Of a stretch of DNA of 26,208 bases, positions 3,850 to 24,958 are shown piece by piece. The translations under genes and the position numbers were made by a program. Source of the stretch: a virus; IMG/VR virus record IMGVR_UViG_3300047552_001166, positions 1-26,208 of that record. One strand, 5' to 3'. Position 1 is the first letter of the stretch. Each line of letters starts with the position of its first letter. The notes under the pieces are model-generated. The model ran no database searches, was not told where the DNA came from, and worked only from the letters and a program-made list of their open reading frames with translations.

Positions 3850-4236
3850 TCATAGAACACCTAGACTTATAAACAGTCTCTTGTTGTACTCACGAAAGGT
3901 ACATCCTTCTTCTAATAGTCGCTCTGGTTTCACCCATTGAACCGTGATACCCTCCTCGGTTTGTTGAGGCTCACCAGACCACTCTGTGATCTGATAGCAC
4001 CACGCCACTTTCTTATTTGTTGTTTCATCGATTCGACTAAAGACATGATGAGCTAACATAACGTCTACGTTCGTTTCCTCTTTCACCTCTCGAACAAGAG
4101 CAGCATAAGGATTCTCGTCGAAAGACTCGATGCTCCCACCAGGCAAACCTAAGTTAGTTGGTTGGTTTCTTCGCGATACTGCGAGCACGAGGCCGTCCTT
4201 TTGAATGAGACCGACGACGAAGCTAGGAGTTTCCAT
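3850..4236 (-). CDS. Nudix hydrolase
   Basis: A 128-aa minus-strand protein of typical Nudix length. The Nudix box is clear at residues 34-57: LPGGSIES, then E41, then REVKEETNV (R49, E50, E53, E54 being the Mg2+-binding helix). It departs slightly from GX5EX7REUXEEXGU: the first spacing is one residue longer and the final Gly is Asn. Nudix enzymes cleave nucleoside diphosphates linked to another moiety; possible targets are oxidised or excess dNTPs, NAD-like compounds, ADP-ribose or RNA caps. The substrate cannot be told from sequence. It stands alone on the minus strand between + strand structural genes, so it is probably an accessory gene with its own promoter, rather than part of the virion operon. 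Confidence 0.85.
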   Translation of the reverse strand: METPSFVVGLIQKDGLVLAVSRRNQPTNLGLPGGSIESFDENPYAALVREVKEETNVDVMLAHHVFSRIDETTNKKVAWCYQITEWSGEPQQTEEGITVQWVKPERLLEEGCTFREYNKRLFISLGVL

Positions 4237-5910: not shown

Positions 5911-7548
5911 ATGAATCCGCTGAGCGAATTGCGCGATTGTAAACTGTGTGAACGTAGTTTTAAGCGTGAACGTGACCTAAAAAAGCACATACAACATACA
6001 CATGAAGTTGCGTATGAGTTGTATGTGCTTCAACACGTTTACAACGGAATTCGGCCAACTTGCGTATGTGGGTGTGGTAACGAAACAAAATTTGATGAAC
6101 GACGGTATAGTTCACGTCTGCGTGGGCACATCACGACAGAAGAAAAATCAGAGAAGTCACGCGAGTTTCTTGAATTCTTTCAAACAAATGAAGGAAGAGA
6201 ATTGGCTTCTGCTCGAGCGGCAAAAGCAAAAGAGTTCTATCAAACTATTGATGGTCTTGAAGCTCGCGAGCTTCGCTCAAAGATTATGAAGAATACCTGG
6301 GAAGATGAGCAACATCCTCATACAATTGCGCGTGTGAATGGAACGAGACTCGCAACCAAAACTCAGGAATTCAAGAATAAGCAAGTTGCTGCTAGTATGT
6401 TGTTGTGGTCTTCTGAAAAAGGAGAACATCTTCGCAAGCTGGCTCGAGTTCGTGGAGTGAAGCGTTACGAGGATATCTCTGAACGTGAACGAACAAGTAA
6501 GGACGTTAGATTTAGTCAATCACATATCATCGCAAATACGGAAGCTCGTTTGATTGCTTCGATGAAAGATGCTTGGTGTGATTTATCATATGAACGAGAT
6601 CTACCAAATGGTCAACAAGGGATTGCTAGTGCAAGGTGTATCACGTGTAACAACGTGGTTAAACGAAAGATTTTAGATTGGATACTTGAACGCGGCTGTC
6701 GTTACTGTGGCTACTACATCTCAAAAGCGCAACGAGAGGTGGCTGATGCGATCATTGAGATGGGACACAAAATCAGTCTGTCTGATAAAACACTTTTAGG
6801 ACACAACCGCGAAGTAGATGTGTTGGTTGAGGATGCGAAACTGGCGATTGAATATGATGGTCTTTACTGGCACTGTGAGCTTAACACTAAGAAAAAACCT
6901 GAAACAAAACGTTTGGCTTTAGAAAATAAGGGCTATTCCTTCTTTCATATCTTCGAAGATGAATGGATTAACAAGAAACCGATTGTACTAAGTCGTTTAA
7001 GACACAAGCTACACGTAACACAAACCAAGATTCATGCACGTGAGTGTGACATAGTAGAGCTTTCACGTAAAGAGGCAGACGAATTTTTTGCTTTGAATCA
7101 TATTGATGGCACAACAAGACATTCGTGTGCGTTTGGGTTAATGTCATCAAATATGCTTGTTGCTGCTATCTCTGTTCGAGATCCATTGCACAAGACTGAA
7201 GGAACTTTAGAGATTGCTAGAAGTGCTTCAAAATTGGATCATGTAATCGTTGGTGGTTTAGCGAAGTTGACAAAACGTGTTAAAACATATGCGATGGCGA
7301 ACAACTACAGCGAATTAATGACATATGTCGATCTTCGTGCAAGTGACGGACGAGGATATGAACGTGTTGGATTTACAAGAAGCAAAATTACACAACCACG
7401 TTTTTGGTGGTATGATCTGAAGACTCGCCGTGATCGATTTTGGTGTCGAGCCGAGTCTGGTAAAACACAAACAGAAGTCGCGATCGAACGTGGTGTTTAT
7501 CGAATTTGGGGATGTGCAAATGCTGTATATCGAATGCGTCTTGTATAA
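5911..7548 (+). CDS. Homing endonuclease: C2H2 zinc finger plus Vsr-like nuclease domain
   Basis: A 545-aa free-standing endonuclease gene between structural genes. An N-terminal C2H2 finger uses C10, C13, H26 and H31, followed by a second Cys cluster (CVCGCG, about residue 50). Residues 80-215 are a basic helical region with repeat-like segments such as FFQTNEGRELAS and FYQTIDGLEARE, probably DNA binding. A further zinc site is formed by CITC and CRYC. The nuclease core is REVDVLVEDAKLAIEYDGLY then WH at residues 300-321, the arrangement of Vsr/EDxHD-type phage homing nucleases with metal-binding acidic residues and an aromatic-Trp-His segment, then FHIFEDEW. The C-terminal 190 residues (EADEFFALNHIDG, DLRASDGRGYERVGF) resemble the acetyltransferase-like tail found in this group. 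Such enzymes cut phage DNA and promote their own spread. Shine-Dalgarno is weak. The gene looks intact. Confidence 0.8.
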   Translation: MNPLSELRDCKLCERSFKRERDLKKHIQHTHEVAYELYVLQHVYNGIRPTCVCGCGNETKFDERRYSSRLRGHITTEEKSEKSREFLEFFQTNEGRELASARAAKAKEFYQTIDGLEARELRSKIMKNTWEDEQHPHTIARVNGTRLATKTQEFKNKQVAASMLLWSSEKGEHLRKLARVRGVKRYEDISERERTSKDVRFSQSHIIANTEARLIASMKDAWCDLSYERDLPNGQQGIASARCITCNNVVKRKILDWILERGCRYCGYYISKAQREVADAIIEMGHKISLSDKTLLGHNREVDVLVEDAKLAIEYDGLYWHCELNTKKKPETKRLALENKGYSFFHIFEDEWINKKPIVLSRLRHKLHVTQTKIHARECDIVELSRKEADEFFALNHIDGTTRHSCAFGLMSSNMLVAAISVRDPLHKTEGTLEIARSASKLDHVIVGGLAKLTKRVKTYAMANNYSELMTYVDLRASDGRGYERVGFTRSKITQPRFWWYDLKTRRDRFWCRAESGKTQTEVAIERGVYRIWGCANAVYRMRLV

Positions 7549-12330: not shown

Positions 12331-12357
12331 GGAACACGATCAAAGAAATCGTGTTTC
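12331..12357 (+). terminator. Hairpin after the 762-aa gene, overlapping the next start region
   Basis: GGAACACGAT (12331-12340) pairs with ATCGTGTTTC (12348-12357) with one G-U pair, leaving the loop CAAAGAA; a short pyrimidine run follows. It lies 22 bp past the stop of the structural gene, so it can act as a terminator. It also covers the AGGA and possible start codon of the following endonuclease gene, so it could limit that gene's translation from read-through transcripts, as known for T4 homing endonuclease genes. Confidence 0.5.
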
Positions 12358-13313
12358 TTCCGCGAAAGCCCGGCGCTCCTGGTAAACCGCCTCGACAGCA
12401 CATTCTTGACTGTGATCACTGTCACGCGGCTTTCAACCGGCCTTACGACCCCAAACGCGCGAAGCAAGCAAGGCATTTTTGCTCTTCGAAATGCGTTTAC
12501 GCTGGTCGCGCAGCTAGTCCGCTTCATGGTCGCAAAACCACGCGCCCTTGTTCTCAATGTGGTAAAGAGGTCACGCGAATGACGTCTTATATGGAGAACA
12601 AGAAGGACATCTTTTGCGATCGTTCATGCTTCTCTGAACACAAGAAGGTTCATCAGCATCCAAACGCGGTCGAAGCGCTTAAACGTACCGTAGCTGATCC
12701 CGAGTTTCGCATGTTCATGAGCGAACACACGAAGGAACGAATTGCTCGTGATGGACACCCGATGTTGGGACGAAAGCATATTGAACAATCGCTAGAGAAG
12801 ATGCGAGGATCTCACGAAGGCAAGCACGATGGGCCTCTGAACGGCATGTACGGCCGCAATCATCGTGAGGATTCGAAAGAGAGAATGTCTGAAGGACATT
12901 CGCGAAACCTTGTTGAAGGCAAGGGTTTCATGTACGGTGGTTTACGTCACGAAAAAGGTTGACACACGTCGTCGAAGGGTAACAACGGGCAACCGATGTT
13001 CTACCGCTCATCGTGGGAAAAAGTAATGATGCTACATCTTGACAACGATGTGAACGTCGTTCGTTACGGTTACGAACGCGTGCGTATCCCGTACTACGAC
13101 ACTGACAATCACAAGCGACATTATGTGCCTGACTTCCTCATCGAGAACGTCAACAGCTCACATGTGCTCTGCGAGATCAAGCCAAAGCAATTCCTCGACA
13201 ACGAGAAGACGAGGTTGAAAGCCGACGCTGCAAACGTGTGGTGCGAGACGCTTAAGAACCATCAGTATGTAATTCTGACAAGCGAGGACTTACGTCTTCA
13301 AGAAATTTTGTGA
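12336..13313 (+). pseudogene. NUMOD3/TnsA-like homing endonuclease split by an in-frame TGA
   Basis: A single frame runs from 12336 to 13313, broken only by TGA at 12960-12962. The first part (GTG 12351, 203 aa) has paired zinc-finger motifs (CDHC with CSSKC; CSQC with CDRSC) and NUMOD3-like repeats (HPMLGRKHIEQSLEKM; GPLNGMYGRNHREDSKERM). The second part (105 aa from ATG 12996) is a PD-(D/E)XK nuclease of TnsA/gp4 type: YRSSWEKVMML, YVPDFLIE, CEIKPK. In relatives I recall, the junction reads G-W-H-T-S; here it reads G-stop-H-T-S, so TGG to TGA is the simplest explanation. The expected start after TTAGGAAC is ACG (12336), where 19289 has ATG behind the same TTAGGAAC. The gene is probably dead, or makes two pieces or a readthrough product. 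Confidence 0.65.
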
Positions 13314-13597
13314 TGTCAATTTTTGCCGACATGGATGTAGACAAGCTGTATGTGATGTGGCGTGACGTTCGAGCCGCGCGCGATGAAATGTGGAAATTAA
13401 AGTCTTTTCAAACAGGAAACTGGAAAACTCAGCATCACATCCAGATGTGGTTTGAAAAGAAGCCGCGTAAAACATCTTTCGAAGAGCTTGGCCTGTGGTT
13501 CGACAGACTCGATCAAATGCTTTACGAACTCCTGATGTCGAAAATCACGGAGCCCAATTTTAGAGATTTGGTTCAAATGGTGATGAATGAAGAATAA
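13313..13597 (+). CDS. Small helical protein, unknown function
   Basis: 94 aa from ATG 13313, overlapping the preceding TGA as TGATG, which suggests translational coupling. Aromatic and charged residues are abundant (MWRDVRAARDEMWKLK, IQMWFEKKPRKTSFEELGLW, FDRLDQMLYELLM), predicting an all-helical protein. No Cys cluster, membrane segment or catalytic motif. It overlaps the next nuclease gene by 11 bp, so the three ORFs 12351-13985 read as one transcription unit. I do not recognise the family. A small partner of the adjacent nuclease is possible but is only inferred from position. Confidence 0.5.
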   Translation: MSIFADMDVDKLYVMWRDVRAARDEMWKLKSFQTGNWKTQHHIQMWFEKKPRKTSFEELGLWFDRLDQMLYELLMSKITEPNFRDLVQMVMNEE

Positions 13598-13985
13598 GCG
13601 TCGTAAGCGTATTAGTCGCCGCGCAAAACGTGGGGTTCACTGTTCTCATAAGTGCCCAAATCCGTTTGTGTACCGTTCTGGCTGGGAACTAAAGTATGCA
13701 CTCTATCTTGATGAGTCTGCAGACGTAGTCTCGTATCTCTATGAACCTTATCCAGTCGAATACGTCTCAAATCTTAAAACCGGCAAACGTCGCAAATATT
13801 GGCCGGATTTTGAGGTGACGATGCGAGATGGCACTGTTGTCCTTGTTGAGATCAAGCCAAAAAAGAAGCTGACGTTGTTAATGAACATTAAGAAGTTTGC
13901 AGCTGCTTCGGCAATGTGTGCTTCTCGTGGCATCAATTTCTGTATCGTGACCGAGGTCAACTTAAAAGAGCTAGGGTTACTTTGA
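13587..13985 (+). CDS. TnsA/T4 gp4-like PD-(D/E)XK nuclease
   Basis: A 132-aa protein with a very basic N-terminus (MKNKRRKRISRRAKRG) and a CSHKC pair, then VYRSGWELKYALYLDE, YWPDFEVTMRDGT and VLVEIKPKKK. The W-E, P-D and E-x-K residues form the metal-binding core of the TnsA-N/head-completion nuclease family that includes T4 gp4. The same YRS-W-E ... PDF ... EIKPK order occurs in the interrupted endonuclease just upstream, so the two are paralogues or exchanged copies. It may be a virion-assembly (gp4-like) protein or a compact homing-type nuclease. Lying directly before ruvC and overlapping it by TGATG, it could also act in DNA processing. The reading frame looks intact. Confidence 0.6.
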   Translation: MKNKRRKRISRRAKRGVHCSHKCPNPFVYRSGWELKYALYLDESADVVSYLYEPYPVEYVSNLKTGKRRKYWPDFEVTMRDGTVVLVEIKPKKKLTLLMNIKKFAAASAMCASRGINFCIVTEVNLKELGLL

Positions 13986-15555: not shown

Positions 15556-15693
15556 ATGAATGATTCGTAAGAAAAATATTATGACAACAAAGGTTGTGTT
15601 CCGTGGAACAAAACTTGTAAAGCTATGATTGAATATTATTGTGAACATGGAACGAACATCTGTGTTGTTTACGAGAAAGATTTGACAAACTGA
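15556..15693 (+). pseudogene. Small gene with an in-frame TAA at codon 5
   Basis: From ATG 15556 one frame runs to TGA 15691-15693 and is broken only by TAA at 15568-15570. After that stop it reads EKYYDNKGCVPWNKTCKAM then IEYYCEHGTNICVVYEKDL, a Cys- and Tyr-rich small protein. Its end overlaps the ATG of the gp47-like gene as TGATG, the arrangement used by intact genes in this operon, which supports a once-functional gene. A shorter product from the internal ATG 15625 (22 aa) is possible. Family not recognised. Confidence 0.45.
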
Positions 15694-16292
15694 TGCGCAT
15701 AGGACACCTTGCCGATTTACATTTGCGTGGCCTCACACGTCACGACGAGATTCGAACAGTTGTAGAAGCCTTTTGCGAATCAGCACGTGTCAAAAAAGTT
15801 GATCATATTGTGATCGCTGGAGATTTGTTCCACACAAAAACTACTGGTATTTCACCTGAAGTCATAGAGTTGTTTGTGTGGATGTTTCGAACAATGATTG
15901 ATGTTGCACCAGTTCATGTTACACTTGGTAATCATGATGGCGCGCTTACAAATCTTACTCGTCAAGATGCGATCAGCCCGATTGTTGAAGCGATTAATAG
16001 TCCTCGTCTCAAGCTTTACAAACAGAGTGGTGTCTATTCTATCGAACCCGGAGTCAATTTATGCGTGTACAGCTTATTTGACAAAGAGGGATGGGAGCGC
16101 GTAAAACCAATTAAAGATGATTACAATATTGCCGTGTATCATGGTTCTGTTGGAGGCGCAGTGTCCGAAGATGGATGGGTGCTAAAGGCAGAGACAACAG
16201 TCCAGTTCTTTGAGAAACAAGGTTACGATATTGTACTTCTTGGTGACATTCACAAACAGCAGTACCTTGGGTACAGAGAGTTCGAGGAATGA
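15693..16292 (+). CDS. gp47: Mre11/SbcD-like recombination nuclease, N-terminal catalytic part
   Basis: 199 aa carrying all five metallophosphatase motifs of gp47/SbcD/Mre11: D8 and H10 (HLADLHL), GD43-44 (IAGDLFH), GNHD at 79-82, H150 (VYHGSVGG) and GDIHKQQ at 184-190. The protein stops after QYLGYREFEE, whereas family members run on for over 100 residues (T4 gp47 is about 339 aa). The missing part is found at the start of the 849-aa ORF at 16507. Start is ATG 15693, coupled to the upstream stop. It should work with the Rad50-like ATPase in DNA end processing and recombination-dependent replication. Whether the two pieces act in trans, or are joined by RNA splicing, is open. Confidence 0.85.
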   Translation: MRIGHLADLHLRGLTRHDEIRTVVEAFCESARVKKVDHIVIAGDLFHTKTTGISPEVIELFVWMFRTMIDVAPVHVTLGNHDGALTNLTRQDAISPIVEAINSPRLKLYKQSGVYSIEPGVNLCVYSLFDKEGWERVKPIKDDYNIAVYHGSVGGAVSEDGWVLKAETTVQFFEKQGYDIVLLGDIHKQQYLGYREFEE

Positions 16293-16510
16293 TGTGCGTA
16301 AGCAAGTATCGTGCGATTCCGTGCCGTCGGCGATTACTGGCATGGACACCCGGAGAAGTTTCCTGTGTTCGATAAGATCCAGAAGTGGAATCCCGGTTAC
16401 GACTCAAAGAAGAACAAACTAGTCAAATGATTGGGTCTTCGACTAGTCAACGGGAATCTGACGTGATAAACGAGGAATAATTGATGAAAGTAATCGAGGG
16501 CTTACGATGA
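16290..16510 (+). pseudogene. Decayed Vsr-like homing endonuclease at the gp47 break
   Basis: One frame reads FRAVGDYWHGHPEKFPVF then DKIQKWNPGYDSKKNKLVK, a stop (TGA 16428-16430), then LGLRLV. After a one-base shift near 16448 it continues RESDVINEE, a stop (TAA 16478-16480), then LMKVIEGLR and TGA 16508-16510. GDYWHGHP is the Trp-His-Gly-His signature of Vsr-like homing endonucleases; LG-x-RLV-x-x-ESDV is their usual C-terminal strand and helix. The N-terminal half of such a domain (about 80-100 residues) is gone. The remnant starts where the gp47 N-part ends and overlaps ATG 16507 of the downstream ORF as ATGA. It may be what is left of an intron-borne or inserted endonuclease gene. I could not identify a group I core with confidence. 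Confidence 0.65.
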
Positions 16511-19056
16511 AGAAGTTGATTCCTTGGATCGGATATAGCGGATCGACGTTACAAAACAGTTACAATGAAGATCTTGAACATGGCTATCTTGTGTGGGACA
16601 TCGACGTCAACACACGTAAGCACGATGTCGAGTTCGTAAAGCTCCCCAATCCACGTCCGTTCGTTACTATCGACTGGCAAGGTAGTGTCGACTTAACGTT
16701 CGACGCAGCAAAAGATTGGCCACAGCAGAGTCGCTTTCGGGTGCGCTCGCAGTATGCACTCCCCGCGAGTGACGCTGCCCTTCTTAGCTCGAAACTACGA
16801 AAAGATAAACAGGCGACAGAGATCATTTTCAAGTCCAATGACGATGAGTCAGCCAAGAAGTTTGCTTCGGCAAGTCTGGGCGTTGATGTTCGGTCTCTCG
16901 ATGCTGTCGAGAGCATGCTTCACGAGTACTACTCTAACGAAGAGTTCGACGATGCCACATACGACGAGATGCGAGAGGTATTATGCTCAGCTCACTCTCG
17001 TGTTATGCTTGAAGATGATACAGCTCGCAACACAGTGTGGACTATACGTCGACTTGATTTTGATAATCTCTACAGCTATGGGTCTGATAACAGCATCGAC
17101 TTTGAGAACAAGAGCGGCATCGTGGGCATCTTTGGTCCTAATGCGATCGGGAAGTCCTCGATTGTCGGGTCCATCATGTACACGCTTTTCAATACTTCGG
17201 ATCGCGATACCAACAAGAATGCACACATTGTTAATTCGCGAAAAAAGTCGGGCTGTGGTCGGGCCGTCATTGTCGCAGCTGGCTCTGAGTATGAGATCGA
17301 ACGCAAGTCAGAAAAGGTTGTCTCGCGTGGTCTACTTACCGCCAATACTTCGCTGACATTTAAGCAATTAGATGGTGAGTGTGAAGATTTGACTGGAGAT
17401 CTTCGCCCGGACACCGAAAAGAATATCCGTAAGCTTATCGGCAACTACGAAGACTTTGTGGTGACCTGTGGCTCTGTACAGGATGATGTTGCTCGCTTTT
17501 TAAAGGAAGGTCCAACACAGCGTAAAGCTATTCTGTCACGCTTTTTAGGGATTGATGTCTTCGAGAAGTTATATGTTGTGCTCAACAGCGAGTTGAGTGA
17601 GACAAAGAGTAAACTTAAGAATTTGCAAACACGGGATGTTCTGCTTGCTTCTGTGAAACAGATTGAGGAAAGTATTGCTGCAGCGCATCTTCGAGTTGAG
17701 ATACTTGAGAAACAGAAGATCACATGCGACGTCTCACGTTCTGATGCTTATGTCGTGATGCAGAATCTTGCGAAGGAAGTAGAGATTCGGAAAAAGGTGG
17801 TCGAGAAGAACCACTTTATTGAGGCTTCTCTCAAAAAAGTACAGAGTTGTGAGGAAATGATTGCAAAGACAAAAGAGCGTATTGCCCAATGCTCTGAGCA
17901 TGTCGCCAGAGTCGAAGCGAAACTCACAACGCTGCTTACTTGGGACGAGATGGATGTTCAGAGAACACGTATCAATGAAGCAAAGCTTGGAGTTCAAGCT
18001 TTGAAAACAGAAGCTGATAAGTGTGGTAGCGCCGTGACGACAGCAAAACGTGTGTCACTGAAACTGATAGATGTTCCATGTGGAGACCAATACCCAATGT
18101 GCGTGTATATCAAAGACGCTCATGAGATGAAGCGACAACTTGTCTCGCTTGAAGCACATCATATTGAGGCGTTGACGAAGTATACAGAATCAGTTGAGAA
18201 ACTCGCTATATTTGATGAGTACAAACTTAACGCTGCACGTGATTTACGGAAAGAACAAGAAGCGGAGTTAGCTCGAGTCAATAAGAGCTTAAATGAAGCA
18301 AAAACAACATTGACTAAGCTTTACTTAGAACAAGAACAAGCACGCGTCGATGCTGCCAAGTATACATCAATAAATCTTGATAATAGTGATATTGAGTCTC
18401 ACTATTTTGAGGCAAATACACTCTACCGTACTCTCAGTCACGAGCTAGCAAGCTATGAAGCTGATCTGAAAGCAGTTTCTAACTCAATTGGTAAACTTGA
18501 GGCAAATCTAACAAAGACACAAGAAGATCTTGTGCAGCGTGTTACTCTTGAACGACAGATGCGTATTCGCGAACTATTGGTTAATGCCTTTTCGCGTCGT
18601 GGTATTCCAAACGTAGTGCTAAGTCGTTTGCTACCTGTTGTCAATAATGAAATGTCGAAGATTCTTGACGGAGTCACGAATTTCAACGTCAACCTAGTTG
18701 CTGAAGACGCGACCAATGCACTTGAGATTTATATCGACGATGAAGGCATAACGAAAAAGAGTTTGCGACCGCTCGAGCTTGGCTCAGGTATGGAGCGTAT
18801 GATGGCATCCTTAGCTTTACGTGTTGCTTTAAGCAATCTTACCACCCTTCCAAAGACAGATTTCATGATCATCGACGAAGGATTTGGTTCACTTGACCCA
18901 ACGAACGCAGTGGCTTGTGTATCGCTTCTTCGCAAGCTAAAGCAATATTTTCGTTTTATATTAGTAATTAGTCACATTGATATCATCAAAGATGCTGTTG
19001 ATTACGCAATTGAAATTACAAATGTAAATGGCGATGCATGTGTAACATCGTCATAA
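16507..19056 (+). CDS. gp46: gp47 C-terminal domain fused to gp46/Rad50-like ATPase
   Basis: 849 aa from ATG 16507 with GAGGG as Shine-Dalgarno. Residues 1 to about 165 are not Rad50: IPWIGYSGSTLQNSYNEDLE, HGYLVWDI and LPNPRPFVTIDW are the capping region that follows GDIHKQQ in gp47/SbcD proteins. From about 175 the Rad50-like part begins: Walker A GPNAIGKSS (210-218), long coiled coil with a CGDQYPMC zinc-hook-like turn (C525, C532), signature LGSGMERM (758-765), Walker B FMIIDE (786-791), D-loop SLDP and H-loop SH (822-823). It should bind and process DNA ends together with the metallophosphatase part encoded just upstream. In T4 the two proteins are separate genes, so this join is unusual. 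Confidence 0.85.
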   Translation: MKKLIPWIGYSGSTLQNSYNEDLEHGYLVWDIDVNTRKHDVEFVKLPNPRPFVTIDWQGSVDLTFDAAKDWPQQSRFRVRSQYALPASDAALLSSKLRKDKQATEIIFKSNDDESAKKFASASLGVDVRSLDAVESMLHEYYSNEEFDDATYDEMREVLCSAHSRVMLEDDTARNTVWTIRRLDFDNLYSYGSDNSIDFENKSGIVGIFGPNAIGKSSIVGSIMYTLFNTSDRDTNKNAHIVNSRKKSGCGRAVIVAAGSEYEIERKSEKVVSRGLLTANTSLTFKQLDGECEDLTGDLRPDTEKNIRKLIGNYEDFVVTCGSVQDDVARFLKEGPTQRKAILSRFLGIDVFEKLYVVLNSELSETKSKLKNLQTRDVLLASVKQIEESIAAAHLRVEILEKQKITCDVSRSDAYVVMQNLAKEVEIRKKVVEKNHFIEASLKKVQSCEEMIAKTKERIAQCSEHVARVEAKLTTLLTWDEMDVQRTRINEAKLGVQALKTEADKCGSAVTTAKRVSLKLIDVPCGDQYPMCVYIKDAHEMKRQLVSLEAHHIEALTKYTESVEKLAIFDEYKLNAARDLRKEQEAELARVNKSLNEAKTTLTKLYLEQEQARVDAAKYTSINLDNSDIESHYFEANTLYRTLSHELASYEADLKAVSNSIGKLEANLTKTQEDLVQRVTLERQMRIRELLVNAFSRRGIPNVVLSRLLPVVNNEMSKILDGVTNFNVNLVAEDATNALEIYIDDEGITKKSLRPLELGSGMERMMASLALRVALSNLTTLPKTDFMIIDEGFGSLDPTNAVACVSLLRKLKQYFRFILVISHIDIIKDAVDYAIEITNVNGDACVTSS

Positions 19057-21934: not shown

Positions 21935-24900
21935 ATGGCCGGACGTCAGAGCACACTTTTTCAACAACTTACTCGTTTGTTCAAGGGCAGTGGTCCATTA
22001 GTCAAACGTAAGATTAAACAAGCTGATACGCGTATAGCTCGCGGTGACCCAACCGGGATAAGCAGCGCTCTTTTGCTTTCTCGTACCGCAGCGGGCTTTA
22101 ATGCTGCGATTGCGGGTGCTGGTGCTTATAACCATCAAGAACGTTCTGCTCGTCTCAATGATTACAACGAGATGGATCAATATGCGCTTGTCAATGCGGC
22201 GCTAGACATCTATGCCGATGAGGCCGTTGCACAGGATGCCAATGGTCGCACACTCCACGTTCACTCTGATAAACCGGCAATCAAAGAGAGTCTCGAGGAG
22301 CTGTTTTATAACACGCTCAATGCTGAGTTTAACATCCGACCTTGGACACGAAATCTTCCTGTGCGGAGAGACACAGTGATCCCACTGTTGGATGGCAGGA
22401 ACATAACAATCGAGCAACTAGCGAAGGAGCACAAGGAAGGCAAGGAGAACTGGGTTTACAGCGTTCAAGATGAGACGCATCGCTCGGTACCTGGAAGGGT
22501 CAATTGGTGCGGGCTTACACGCTCGAATAGCAATCTTGTCCGTGTTCACCTTGATGATGGTACACATGTGGACTGCACACCGGATCATGATTGGGTGATG
22601 CGTGACGGCAGCAAGAAGGCGGCGAATGATCTACGGCCTGGCGATAGCTTGATGCCGTTTTATAGGAAGGTTAGCGATCGAAGCAAAGGAGCTCGTGCTG
22701 ATGGGTACGAGCAAGTGTACGATCCGGGTTCGAACCGATACGTCTACACCCACTGTCGCGTCGCTGAAATTTTGCCTGAGGTTCCACTCAAATCAGGCAG
22801 GCATCGAGTCACCCACCACAAGGACTTCGTCAAGCTCAATAACTCTCCATCAAACCTCGTGAGGATGGATGAAGCGGAACACATGGAGCTTCATCGTCAG
22901 TTTGCCATCGAGAAGCTACACACACCTGAGGTTACGGCGAAGCGCATGGCAGGTATCGACCGTTGGCTACGTTCCGACGAGCACCGTGAAGCCGCGCGTA
23001 CACAGACAAAGAAGCGTCTCGCCGACGGTACACTCCCCACGTGGTCTGCTTACAACGCCTCCGAGCTTCACAAGGAGCACAACGTTGTTCGTTCCGCGGG
23101 AATGAAGGCGATGTGGTCCGATCCTAGGGTCGCCTCGGATAAACGCTTCCAGAAGGCCTTGAAGATCAGCGAGTCGAAGAGAAAGGTCAAGAACCACAAG
23201 GTTGACCGTGTCGAAAAACTGATTGAGACCGATGATGTGTATTGTATGGAGGTGCTTGGGCCGAACGGCGAGCATGACAGACATAATTTCGCAGTACTGA
23301 GTCGAAAGTCGAATGGTGATCTAAATTCATCTGGGGTAGTACTCGGGAACTGTAAATACGGCGACTTCTACCTGTATATTGACGTTTCGCCCGAATATGG
23401 CGTCATCAATGTTATGCCAATTGCGGTCAATGAGCTAGTACGAGAGGAAGGATACGATCCAAATGATCCGCTTGCCTTCCGTTTCAGGTGGACAAATATC
23501 GGAAATCGTACACTCGAGAATTGGGAGGTTGCACACTTTCGATTACTTGGCAATGATATGTTTCTCCCATATGGATCTTCGATGATCGATGGTGCTCGTC
23601 GTACATGGCGTCAGCTTGTCATGATTGAGGATGCAATGCTTGTATATCGCGTCACTCGTGCAGTCGATCGTCGTGTGTTCTACATTGATGTCGCGGGTCA
23701 AGCTCCGGATGAGATTCCGAACTATATGGAACAGGCGAAGGTCGCGCTTCGTAGTCAGGGCGTCATTGATCGCAACACAGGTAAGATGGATATGCGATAC
23801 GCACCGGTCTCCATCGAAGATGATTTCTGGGTTCCAACACGCGGTGGCGAAACAAGCACCAAGATTGACACGTTACCGGCTGGTAACAATGCCGCACACG
23901 TTGAGGATGTCGAGTATATCAAGAAACAACTCATCGCTGCTCTTAAGGTTCCGGCTGCCTATCTTGGATACAATGATGCTATACCAGGAAGTAGCGGTCT
24001 CGCCCAGGTGGATATAAGATTTTCCCGTACTGTCAACATGATTCAGCGAACATTGGTCAGCGAACTTAACAAGATTGCGATGATTCATTTGTATGCTGCC
24101 GGCTTCCGTGGTGACGATCTTACTAATTTTGAAATCCGTTTGAGCAATCCATCTACTATTGCTCAACAACAGAAGCTTGATTTGTTGAGGCTACGTTTTG
24201 AGATTGCTGGTACCGCACCTATCATTGGTGAGACATCGCTTATGAGCGAACGTTGGATGTTTAAAAACGTGATTGGGCTTAACGATCAGGAGATCTTGCA
24301 GATTCGTAGAGAGCGACTTGATGATGCTCGTGCTAAAGGAGCTTTGGAAGCTGCTAGCGCTCTTGCTGATTCAGGGAATGAAAGCGGCGGTGGCGGTGCT
24401 GAGGAAACTCCTACACCTGATGCTGGTGGTGAGCCTGAGCTTGAGACTGCTGCAGATGACAATCGTGGGCAAGGTGATGTCATTTCTGGTCTCAAGGAAG
24501 ATGAAAGCCCCGTCAAAATTGCCCCAGCTCTCAGGACAACATTGGTTAATCGACGTCGCAATCAACGTCGAAAGACTCGTTTCCCAACCATTAATGATCG
24601 TGCAGTCTCTGGTGCGACCGCCGTACCTACTATCCCTGAACAAAATCTACGTGAGGCCTTTGAGGATCTCTATAAAGAGACTGTTGAGGATATGCATGCA
24701 CAAAATGCTGACACAGATCCTGAAAAGACTCACATCACAGTCAAACCTATCTTTGGTTTGGCAGAACTTCGCATGCTCAACAAGTTTGCGGAAATGAAGA
24801 ATACGTCTGTACCAAACTCAACTGACTGGGACAGTCAAAATGCTGCTAAGGTTCTGACCGAACGATACGTTACTACCCCACGTATCGAGGAAAAAGAAGA

Positions 24901-24958
24901 TCCTCTCGATTTTGACTTATATGTCGTTGAAGACGGTGACGGAAAGGTGACTACTTAG
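21935..24958 (+). CDS. gp20: Portal protein (gp20-like) containing an intein
   Basis: 1007 aa from ATG 21935 with GAGGA six bases upstream; about 331 residues are an intein, leaving a mature protein of about 676 aa, larger than T4 gp20 (524 aa). The extein reads NIRPWTRNL (to residue 141) then CKYGDFYLYIDVSPEYG (from 473); joined, TRNL-CKYGDFYLY is the conserved core of gp20-type portals. Later segments MDQYALVNAALDIYADEA, HFRLLGNDMFLPYGSSMIDG and EDAMLVYRVTRAVDRRVFYI fit the family: the dodecameric ring through which DNA is packaged and to which the neck attaches. The last 190 residues after the core are acidic and Gly/Glu-rich (GGGGAEETPTPDAGG) and probably disordered. Ends in TAG, 10 bp before the next gene. 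Confidence 0.9.
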   Translation: MAGRQSTLFQQLTRLFKGSGPLVKRKIKQADTRIARGDPTGISSALLLSRTAAGFNAAIAGAGAYNHQERSARLNDYNEMDQYALVNAALDIYADEAVAQDANGRTLHVHSDKPAIKESLEELFYNTLNAEFNIRPWTRNLPVRRDTVIPLLDGRNITIEQLAKEHKEGKENWVYSVQDETHRSVPGRVNWCGLTRSNSNLVRVHLDDGTHVDCTPDHDWVMRDGSKKAANDLRPGDSLMPFYRKVSDRSKGARADGYEQVYDPGSNRYVYTHCRVAEILPEVPLKSGRHRVTHHKDFVKLNNSPSNLVRMDEAEHMELHRQFAIEKLHTPEVTAKRMAGIDRWLRSDEHREAARTQTKKRLADGTLPTWSAYNASELHKEHNVVRSAGMKAMWSDPRVASDKRFQKALKISESKRKVKNHKVDRVEKLIETDDVYCMEVLGPNGEHDRHNFAVLSRKSNGDLNSSGVVLGNCKYGDFYLYIDVSPEYGVINVMPIAVNELVREEGYDPNDPLAFRFRWTNIGNRTLENWEVAHFRLLGNDMFLPYGSSMIDGARRTWRQLVMIEDAMLVYRVTRAVDRRVFYIDVAGQAPDEIPNYMEQAKVALRSQGVIDRNTGKMDMRYAPVSIEDDFWVPTRGGETSTKIDTLPAGNNAAHVEDVEYIKKQLIAALKVPAAYLGYNDAIPGSSGLAQVDIRFSRTVNMIQRTLVSELNKIAMIHLYAAGFRGDDLTNFEIRLSNPSTIAQQQKLDLLRLRFEIAGTAPIIGETSLMSERWMFKNVIGLNDQEILQIRRERLDDARAKGALEAASALADSGNESGGGGAEETPTPDAGGEPELETAADDNRGQGDVISGLKEDESPVKIAPALRTTLVNRRRNQRRKTRFPTINDRAVSGATAVPTIPEQNLREAFEDLYKETVEDMHAQNADTDPEKTHITVKPIFGLAELRMLNKFAEMKNTSVPNSTDWDSQNAAKVLTERYVTTPRIEEKEDPLDFDLYVVEDGDGKVTT
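22358..23350 (+). mobile_element. Intein with HNH endonuclease; class 3-like splicing residues
   Basis: In-frame insertion, portal residues 142-472. Block A: PVRRDTVIPLLDG, aligning Pro142 with the usual Cys1 (the D-T pair falls at positions 5-6). Block B: DCTPDHDWVMRDG, with T215, H218 and W220. Block F: DDVYCMEV with C437, then HNFAVLS. Block G: VVLGN ending in N472, followed by extein C473. No Cys or Ser at position 1, Trp at B:12 and Cys at F:4 match class 3 inteins, but the Thr expected at G:5 is Leu and the penultimate residue is Gly rather than His. Between the splicing blocks lies an HNH endonuclease (RVTHHKDFVKLNNSPSNL then EHMELH) followed by NUMOD-like helices. It should self-excise, joining L141 to C473. 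The portal function requires this to work. Confidence 0.85.

Follow-up and report, generated by a model that had tools for sequence, protein, structure and literature searches.

Why should a phage gene for an Mre11-type nuclease end inside its own catalytic domain, with the missing part reappearing at the start of the next gene? The question is raised by a 26,208-nucleotide virus fragment, IMG/VR record IMGVR_UViG_3300047552_001166 (the window, by which we mean the whole stretch analysed), in which gp47 (Mre11/SbcD) and gp46 (Rad50/SbcC) are laid out over two open reading frames (ORFs) on the + strand, 15693-16292 (199 aa) and 16507-19056 (849 aa), with 214 bases between them. Our conclusion, held with high confidence, is that a fused phage Mre11-Rad50 (SbcD-SbcC) gene has here been split by a homing endonuclease gene (HEG) of Vsr/EDxHD-like type, free-standing and site-specific. 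A preliminary description of the sequence had recognised the broken fusion; it had not seen that the break recurs, nor that it goes with a homing endonuclease, the remnant of which occupies the gap.

The pair is identified by its motifs: the first piece has a complete metallophosphatase set, and the second has the Walker A and B of a Rad50-type ATPase. The 199-aa product matches Pfam Metallophos (E 8.8e-18) and the SbcD-like family phrog_100 (E 5.9e-17) and carries all five motifs, as the preliminary description had claimed: DLH at 15714-15722, GDLFH at 15819-15833, GNHDG at 15927-15941, YHG at 16137-16145 and GDIH at 16242-16253. That description let the ORF stop right after GDIHKQQYL; the break does lie inside Mre11, and the real end is seven residues further on. 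The second product, which opens with the gp47 continuation and then runs through a full Rad50/gp46, as had also been seen, matches the SbcC-like phrog_77 (E 1.8e-51). As a candidate for the CxxC zinc hook expected at the coiled-coil apex it has a conserved VPCGDQYPMC (18073-18102), whose two cysteines stand seven residues apart and not in a CxxC arrangement. The elements of the two coding pieces are as follows.

15693..16292, + strand: gp47/Mre11/SbcD nuclease core, 199 aa, motifs I-V, by Pfam, PHROG and motifs; C-terminus GDIHKQQYLGYREFEE, then stop
16242..16253, + strand: metal-binding motif V (GDIH); the break lies 12 residues downstream, at the next beta-hairpin turn
16496..16500, + strand: Shine-Dalgarno-like GAGGG of the downstream piece, six bases 5' of the ATG at 16507
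16507..19056, + strand: second piece, 849 aa, the gp47 C-terminal part (about residues 1-170) fused to gp46/Rad50, by Pfam and PHROG; N-terminus MKKLIPWIGYSGSTLQNSYNEDLE
16507..16521, + strand: basic head MKKLI of the second piece, possible partner of the first piece's acidic end, GYREFEE
17134..17157, + strand: Walker A, GPNAIGKS, in the second piece
18865..18897, + strand: Walker B and D-loop, MIIDEGFGSLD, in the second piece

A single ancestral Mre11-Rad50 fusion, broken inside Mre11, had been proposed from the window alone, and a search for uninterrupted relatives bears it out. Scans of virus contigs gave 143 distinct loci carrying both parts; the single-ORF form, which the split window lacks, is found in 102 of them, and the other 41 are split. 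Microcystis phage Mel-JY01 makes gp47 and gp46 as a single protein of 1066 aa, the two matched stretches being 15 bases apart; both parts likewise share one 1202-aa ORF in a 735-kb phage record, and Tenacibaculum phage pT24 encodes a 1310-aa protein with the metallophosphatase at its start. Among isolated phages, relatives of the locus came only from Mel-JY01 and a small number of large phages, each of them distant, and no cellular relative was matched among the genome contigs searched. Since most relatives make one protein of about 1050 aa, the ancestor was in all likelihood an Mre11-Rad50 fusion, and the fused state of the outer rows of the tree favours the same order of events. The fused/split state changes at least 11 times on a 132-row tree, and a mixture model on a 46-row tree also gives 11 changes, 10 of them forced by well-supported branches, counts which by themselves do not separate gain from loss. 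The nearest fused relative of the window's clade, L044, stands on a long branch. All splits fall in the same loop past GDIH, of which GDIHKQQFLGYRDGKPWIGYPGTPIQQNYAEEL, from the fused locus L048, is an example. The arrangement that would have spoken for a different history, a native N-terminal domain of gp46 with a complete gp47 elsewhere, was not encountered.

Most of the gap in the window is taken up by what remains of the 3' end of a HEG of probable Vsr (EDxHD-like) type, now decayed. Compared with the 3' end of the HEG of locus L003, the interval aligns over 186 nt at 76% identity (E 3e-36); about the first 230 codons are gone, and the rest has in-frame stops and a 4-nt gap. Its last 35-45 nt are 91% identical to L003, against 74% for the remainder, and the GAGGG of the downstream piece, to which the preliminary description had rightly assigned its own Shine-Dalgarno and ATG, sits within the last codons of the dead HEG, which offers a plausible reason for the persistence of the remnant. 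The interval thus falls into two parts.

16325..16449, + strand: HEG nuclease-domain remnant (GDYWHGHPEKFPVFDKIQKWNPGYDSKKNKLVK, then stop), 74% identical to L003:4815-4939
16450..16506, + strand: dead HEG 3' end, holding the ribosome-binding site of the downstream piece, 88-91% identical to L003

Intact HEG ORFs occupy the same junction in L003, L006, L171, L212, L220 and L224. Those of L003 (293 aa) and L006 (298 aa) both end in an ATGA overlap with the downstream start, and the L003 ORF also overlaps the upstream stop, so that it shares 4 nt with each half; in L006 about 180 nt (3924-4107) lie between the gp47 N piece and the HEG, seemingly as a short open frame (VWHCEYTHRTWIIVGKGSGYMFEK...) that L003 does not have. 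The L003 and L006 HEGs match phage homing-endonuclease families, and the L006 product gives a weak match to Pfam Vsr (E 7.8e-5, below Pfam's cut-off). The HEG of L171 is 36-45% identical to those of L212, L003 and L006, and residues common to four HEGs are E193, the D of EFDFY/EYDFY and DGDY(W/F)H, the window copy lacking the first half. A sequence search of the Protein Data Bank returned no useful match of the HEG to a solved structure. We take the junction HEGs, with their putative Vsr-like nuclease domain, to be kin of EDxHD enzymes such as I-Bth0305I, from which they differ in having a zinc-finger-like N-terminal region. I-Bth0305I itself is named as an EDxHD homing endonuclease (PMC6083498).

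The other relatives complete a series in which all stages from intact to erased are present. In L004 and L164 the middle of the HEG is deleted and its first and last codons remain, in frame; L169 retains about 66 nt of the 3' end, and L001 and most of the L067 group have no HEG trace and only a 4-nt stop-start overlap (ATGA in L001, TTGA/ATGA in the L067 group). At the same junction the 484-kb phage L009 has an ORF with a TnsA-like domain. On sequence grounds the locus is thus a HEG-split gene of the Aeh1 nrdA type, with a HEG or its remnant separating two gene halves that are continuous in relatives. An alignment search with the HEG gave 80 loci. The ten nearest to it are all situated at this junction or next to it; those further removed lie elsewhere, apart from two that merely have a fused gene nearby, and a HEG-only query with two sequences returned known loci and weak matches only. 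This distribution suggests that the HEG has a preference for the site.

Close sisters differ mainly by the cassette. Split L164 and fused L013 have flanks 86-87% identical, with 274 nt replacing 41 nt, and split L169 and fused L210 have flanks 86-88% identical, with 181 nt replacing 30 nt. In the pairs L164/L169 and L171/L160 the synonymous difference is 0.23-0.24 in the tail preceding the HEG as against 0.73-0.80 in the flanking gene. L003 and L004 share 71 identical nt running from the end of the HEG into the downstream start, despite divergence in the gp46 part of L004 (54% identity to the window, 66-71% nucleotide identity to L003), and synonymous identity peaks next to the junction. Such a pattern is what homing with co-conversion of the flanks would leave. 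The HEG would spread by cutting the uninterrupted fused gene near the conserved GDIH region, repair of the cut then copying it in; in the window it has decayed, while its last 35-45 bases, with the downstream ribosome-binding site, are well preserved.

The series can also be read in the other direction, with the gene parting first into two coupled genes joined by a stop-start overlap and the HEG settling later in a ready-made junction, as has been considered for gene 43 of phage 25 (PMC2988022). The HEG-free overlaps of L001 and the L067 group are what this order would leave, and L001 shows no raised synonymous identity on the downstream side; the split may therefore predate the HEG in the window's own clade, which counts against insertion as the cause of the break there. 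Yet L001 is nested among carriers of a HEG or remnant, with L004, which has a remnant, outside, and L164, L169, L171 and L160 sit within groups of fused sisters that have yielded no split intermediate free of a HEG. We regard this order as improbable, though not negligible, and keep to the insertion of the HEG into a fused gene.

Two further accounts concern the fate of the product. In one, the first piece is a useless remnant, Mre11 function having been lost and the Rad50 part kept, or another gp47 being present. The break does fall inside the nuclease domain, and the window is a 26-kb fragment of an incomplete phage genome, so that a second gp47 may lie elsewhere in this phage, a point that also bears on our own reading. 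Against such a loss, all five motifs are retained in all split loci examined, every split pair tested shows purifying selection in both halves (pN/pS 0.04-0.33; 0.21-0.25 for the core of the window versus relatives), and the 72-kb and 132-kb relatives have no second gp47 or gp46, with a single Metallophos and a single AAA_23 match each; the 369-kb and 484-kb phages contain other metallophosphatases and one AAA_23 match each. We consider loss of function very unlikely. Selection on both halves, together with the lack of a second copy in the 132-kb relative, indicates that the two halves probably reassemble into a working enzyme, which lends indirect support to the two-piece nuclease envisaged in the preliminary description.

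In the other account an intron or intein removes the gap and a full-length protein is still made, and we give it hardly any credence. It would suit an interruption within a conserved protein region, and the same phage does have an intein in its portal gene; at this locus, though, the first piece has a stop of its own and the second its own start and Shine-Dalgarno. In L003 the intact HEG ORF, overlapping both halves by 4 nt, leaves no room outside it for an intron core, and the splicing considered in the preliminary description finds no support. The locus matched no known intron RNA family, group I included, and the junction peptides of both pieces revealed no intein sequence. In the fractured genes of Dassa et al. 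2009, phage gene halves with split inteins reportedly flank a free-standing HEG of a Vsr-like family; the gp47 pieces, by contrast, carry no intein halves and hence would not undergo protein trans-splicing. The study of Dassa et al. is listed in PMC10448857. The portal gene of the window (21935-24958), which encodes a T4-type portal protein, contains an intein of about 331 aa at 22358-23350 with boundaries RNL/PVRRDT...VVLGN/CKYGDF, whose first residue would be a proline, unusual for an intein; the portal of L002 reads RNLCKYGDF without interruption.

If the fusion was split by a HEG and still works, the place of the break may tell how. In an AlphaFold model of the fused L048 protein (mean pLDDT 83.9), GDIH (183-186) comes directly before a beta-hairpin with strands 189-194 and 197-202, and the break corresponds to its two-residue turn, D195-G196; by Foldseek, the models match both Rad50 and SbcD/Mre11 structures. 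The first piece of the split loci has an acidic C-terminal tail (mean charge -5.3; e.g. VEIEIDEDDLYKYPGCTIIE) and the second a basic N-terminal head (mean +4.7; e.g. MGKKIKIKVKKPW), the window having GYREFEE and MKKLIPW and other lineages VEIEIDExDL... and MGKKIKIKVKKPW. Tail and head are of opposite charge in 38 of 39 split loci versus 18 of 96 fused loops, although the split loci are related, most having one tail type, and hence do not amount to 39 independent cases. The two polypeptides may thus rejoin non-covalently through the broken hairpin, its strands lengthened and given opposite charge, to form an active nuclease-ATPase. We tentatively suggest, at somewhat less than even confidence, that the mobile cassette brings its own protein clasp, an acidic beta-alpha-beta tail and a basic beta-strand head that would rebuild the Mre11 hairpin across the two chains. 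A model of the fused L111 protein (mean pLDDT 87.3), with strands 194-205 and 225-237 and a helix and a strand between them, is taken as support for the proposed pairing of tail and head. The pieces of the split Aeh1 nrdA are said to assemble via tails derived from the mobile element, which, if so, would be a precedent for the clasp.

Besides the relatedness of the split loci, several points weigh against this picture. The window's clade lacks the long tail and head and has a short charge pattern of -2/+2, with L001 as an exception at +1/+1. The pairing of tail and head strands is read from secondary structure in single-chain models, and two-piece function is argued from selection and sequence. 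Apart from these points, a pattern search of unmeasured sensitivity showed the same tail/head pair around no gene other than gp47 in the collected loci.

Some loci depart from the simple fused or split layout. In L111 (5995-9204) the fused gene contains tail-like and head-like segments in frame; it may have arisen when a split gene fused again, or may go back to an old insertion. In L224 (4843-5988) and L222 (4708-4960) the gp47 C-terminal head forms a small ORF of its own, some 75-80 aa long, and the ORFs after it are unrelated; the gp46 match of L224 begins some 900 nt further on, so that the fusion may there be in three pieces.

The window locus itself has a primase-like gene on its upstream side and genes for a T4-type terminase and portal on its downstream side, and other endonuclease-like genes accompany it. 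A second homing-endonuclease-like gene (12339-13310; NUMOD3 and a TnsA-like domain) is divided into two ORFs by an in-frame stop, its intact counterpart in L004 (800-1795) encoding 331 aa at 55% identity. A 545-aa protein of a homing-endonuclease family (5911-7548; phrog_3339, E 4.8e-60, with a weak match to the MTES_1575 nuclease) may be a relative of the dead HEG. Another TnsA-like endonuclease ORF (13587-13985; Pfam 5.9e-17) lies beside a RuvC-like gene, and similar genes are found upstream in L001 and L004.

Mre11-Rad50 fusions and HEG-split genes are each known; we did not find their combination described, and our literature searches turned up no report of such an endonuclease gene within an SbcCD or gp46-gp47 gene. 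Fusions have been reported in Mimivirus (R555), a Bacillus phage and some plasmids, and were inferred to be common in aquatic viruses (PMC3175470). The Mimivirus R555 type, like our fused relatives (Mel-JY01, L048), has the Mre11 nuclease, the cap, the Rad50-binding region and then Rad50 in one chain, whereas the fusion of the window is cut again inside Mre11, leaving the Mre11 C-terminal part and Rad50 to the second gene. Genes split by intron-less HEG insertion include nrdA of Aeromonas phage Aeh1 (mobE), the T4 topoisomerase (mobA) and gene 43 of phage 25, function having been shown for the split nrdA and polymerase activity for gene 43 (PMC2988022, PMC3653736). As in these cases, the HEG of the gp47 locus is free-standing at a critical site of a gene, with both parts open. 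The gp47 split differs from them in the host gene, in an endonuclease of Vsr rather than HNH type, in the at least 11 fused/split changes at one site with a full series from intact to erased HEG, and in its charge-complementary tail and head.

All together, these loci offer a natural series at a single, precisely defined site in a central repair enzyme, from the intact gene through the endonuclease-split form and the dead endonuclease to a clean two-gene form, with closely related fused and split sisters at hand for comparison. They make it possible to ask how a protein cut within its catalytic domain keeps its activity, and how mobile endonucleases permanently make two genes from one; the split also gives a separable Mre11 core for studying the coupling of nuclease and ATPase. 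If the clasp is real, it would give homing endonucleases a further means, besides introns and inteins, of residing in an important gene, and it would outlast the dead endonuclease, so that the two-subunit enzyme becomes fixed.

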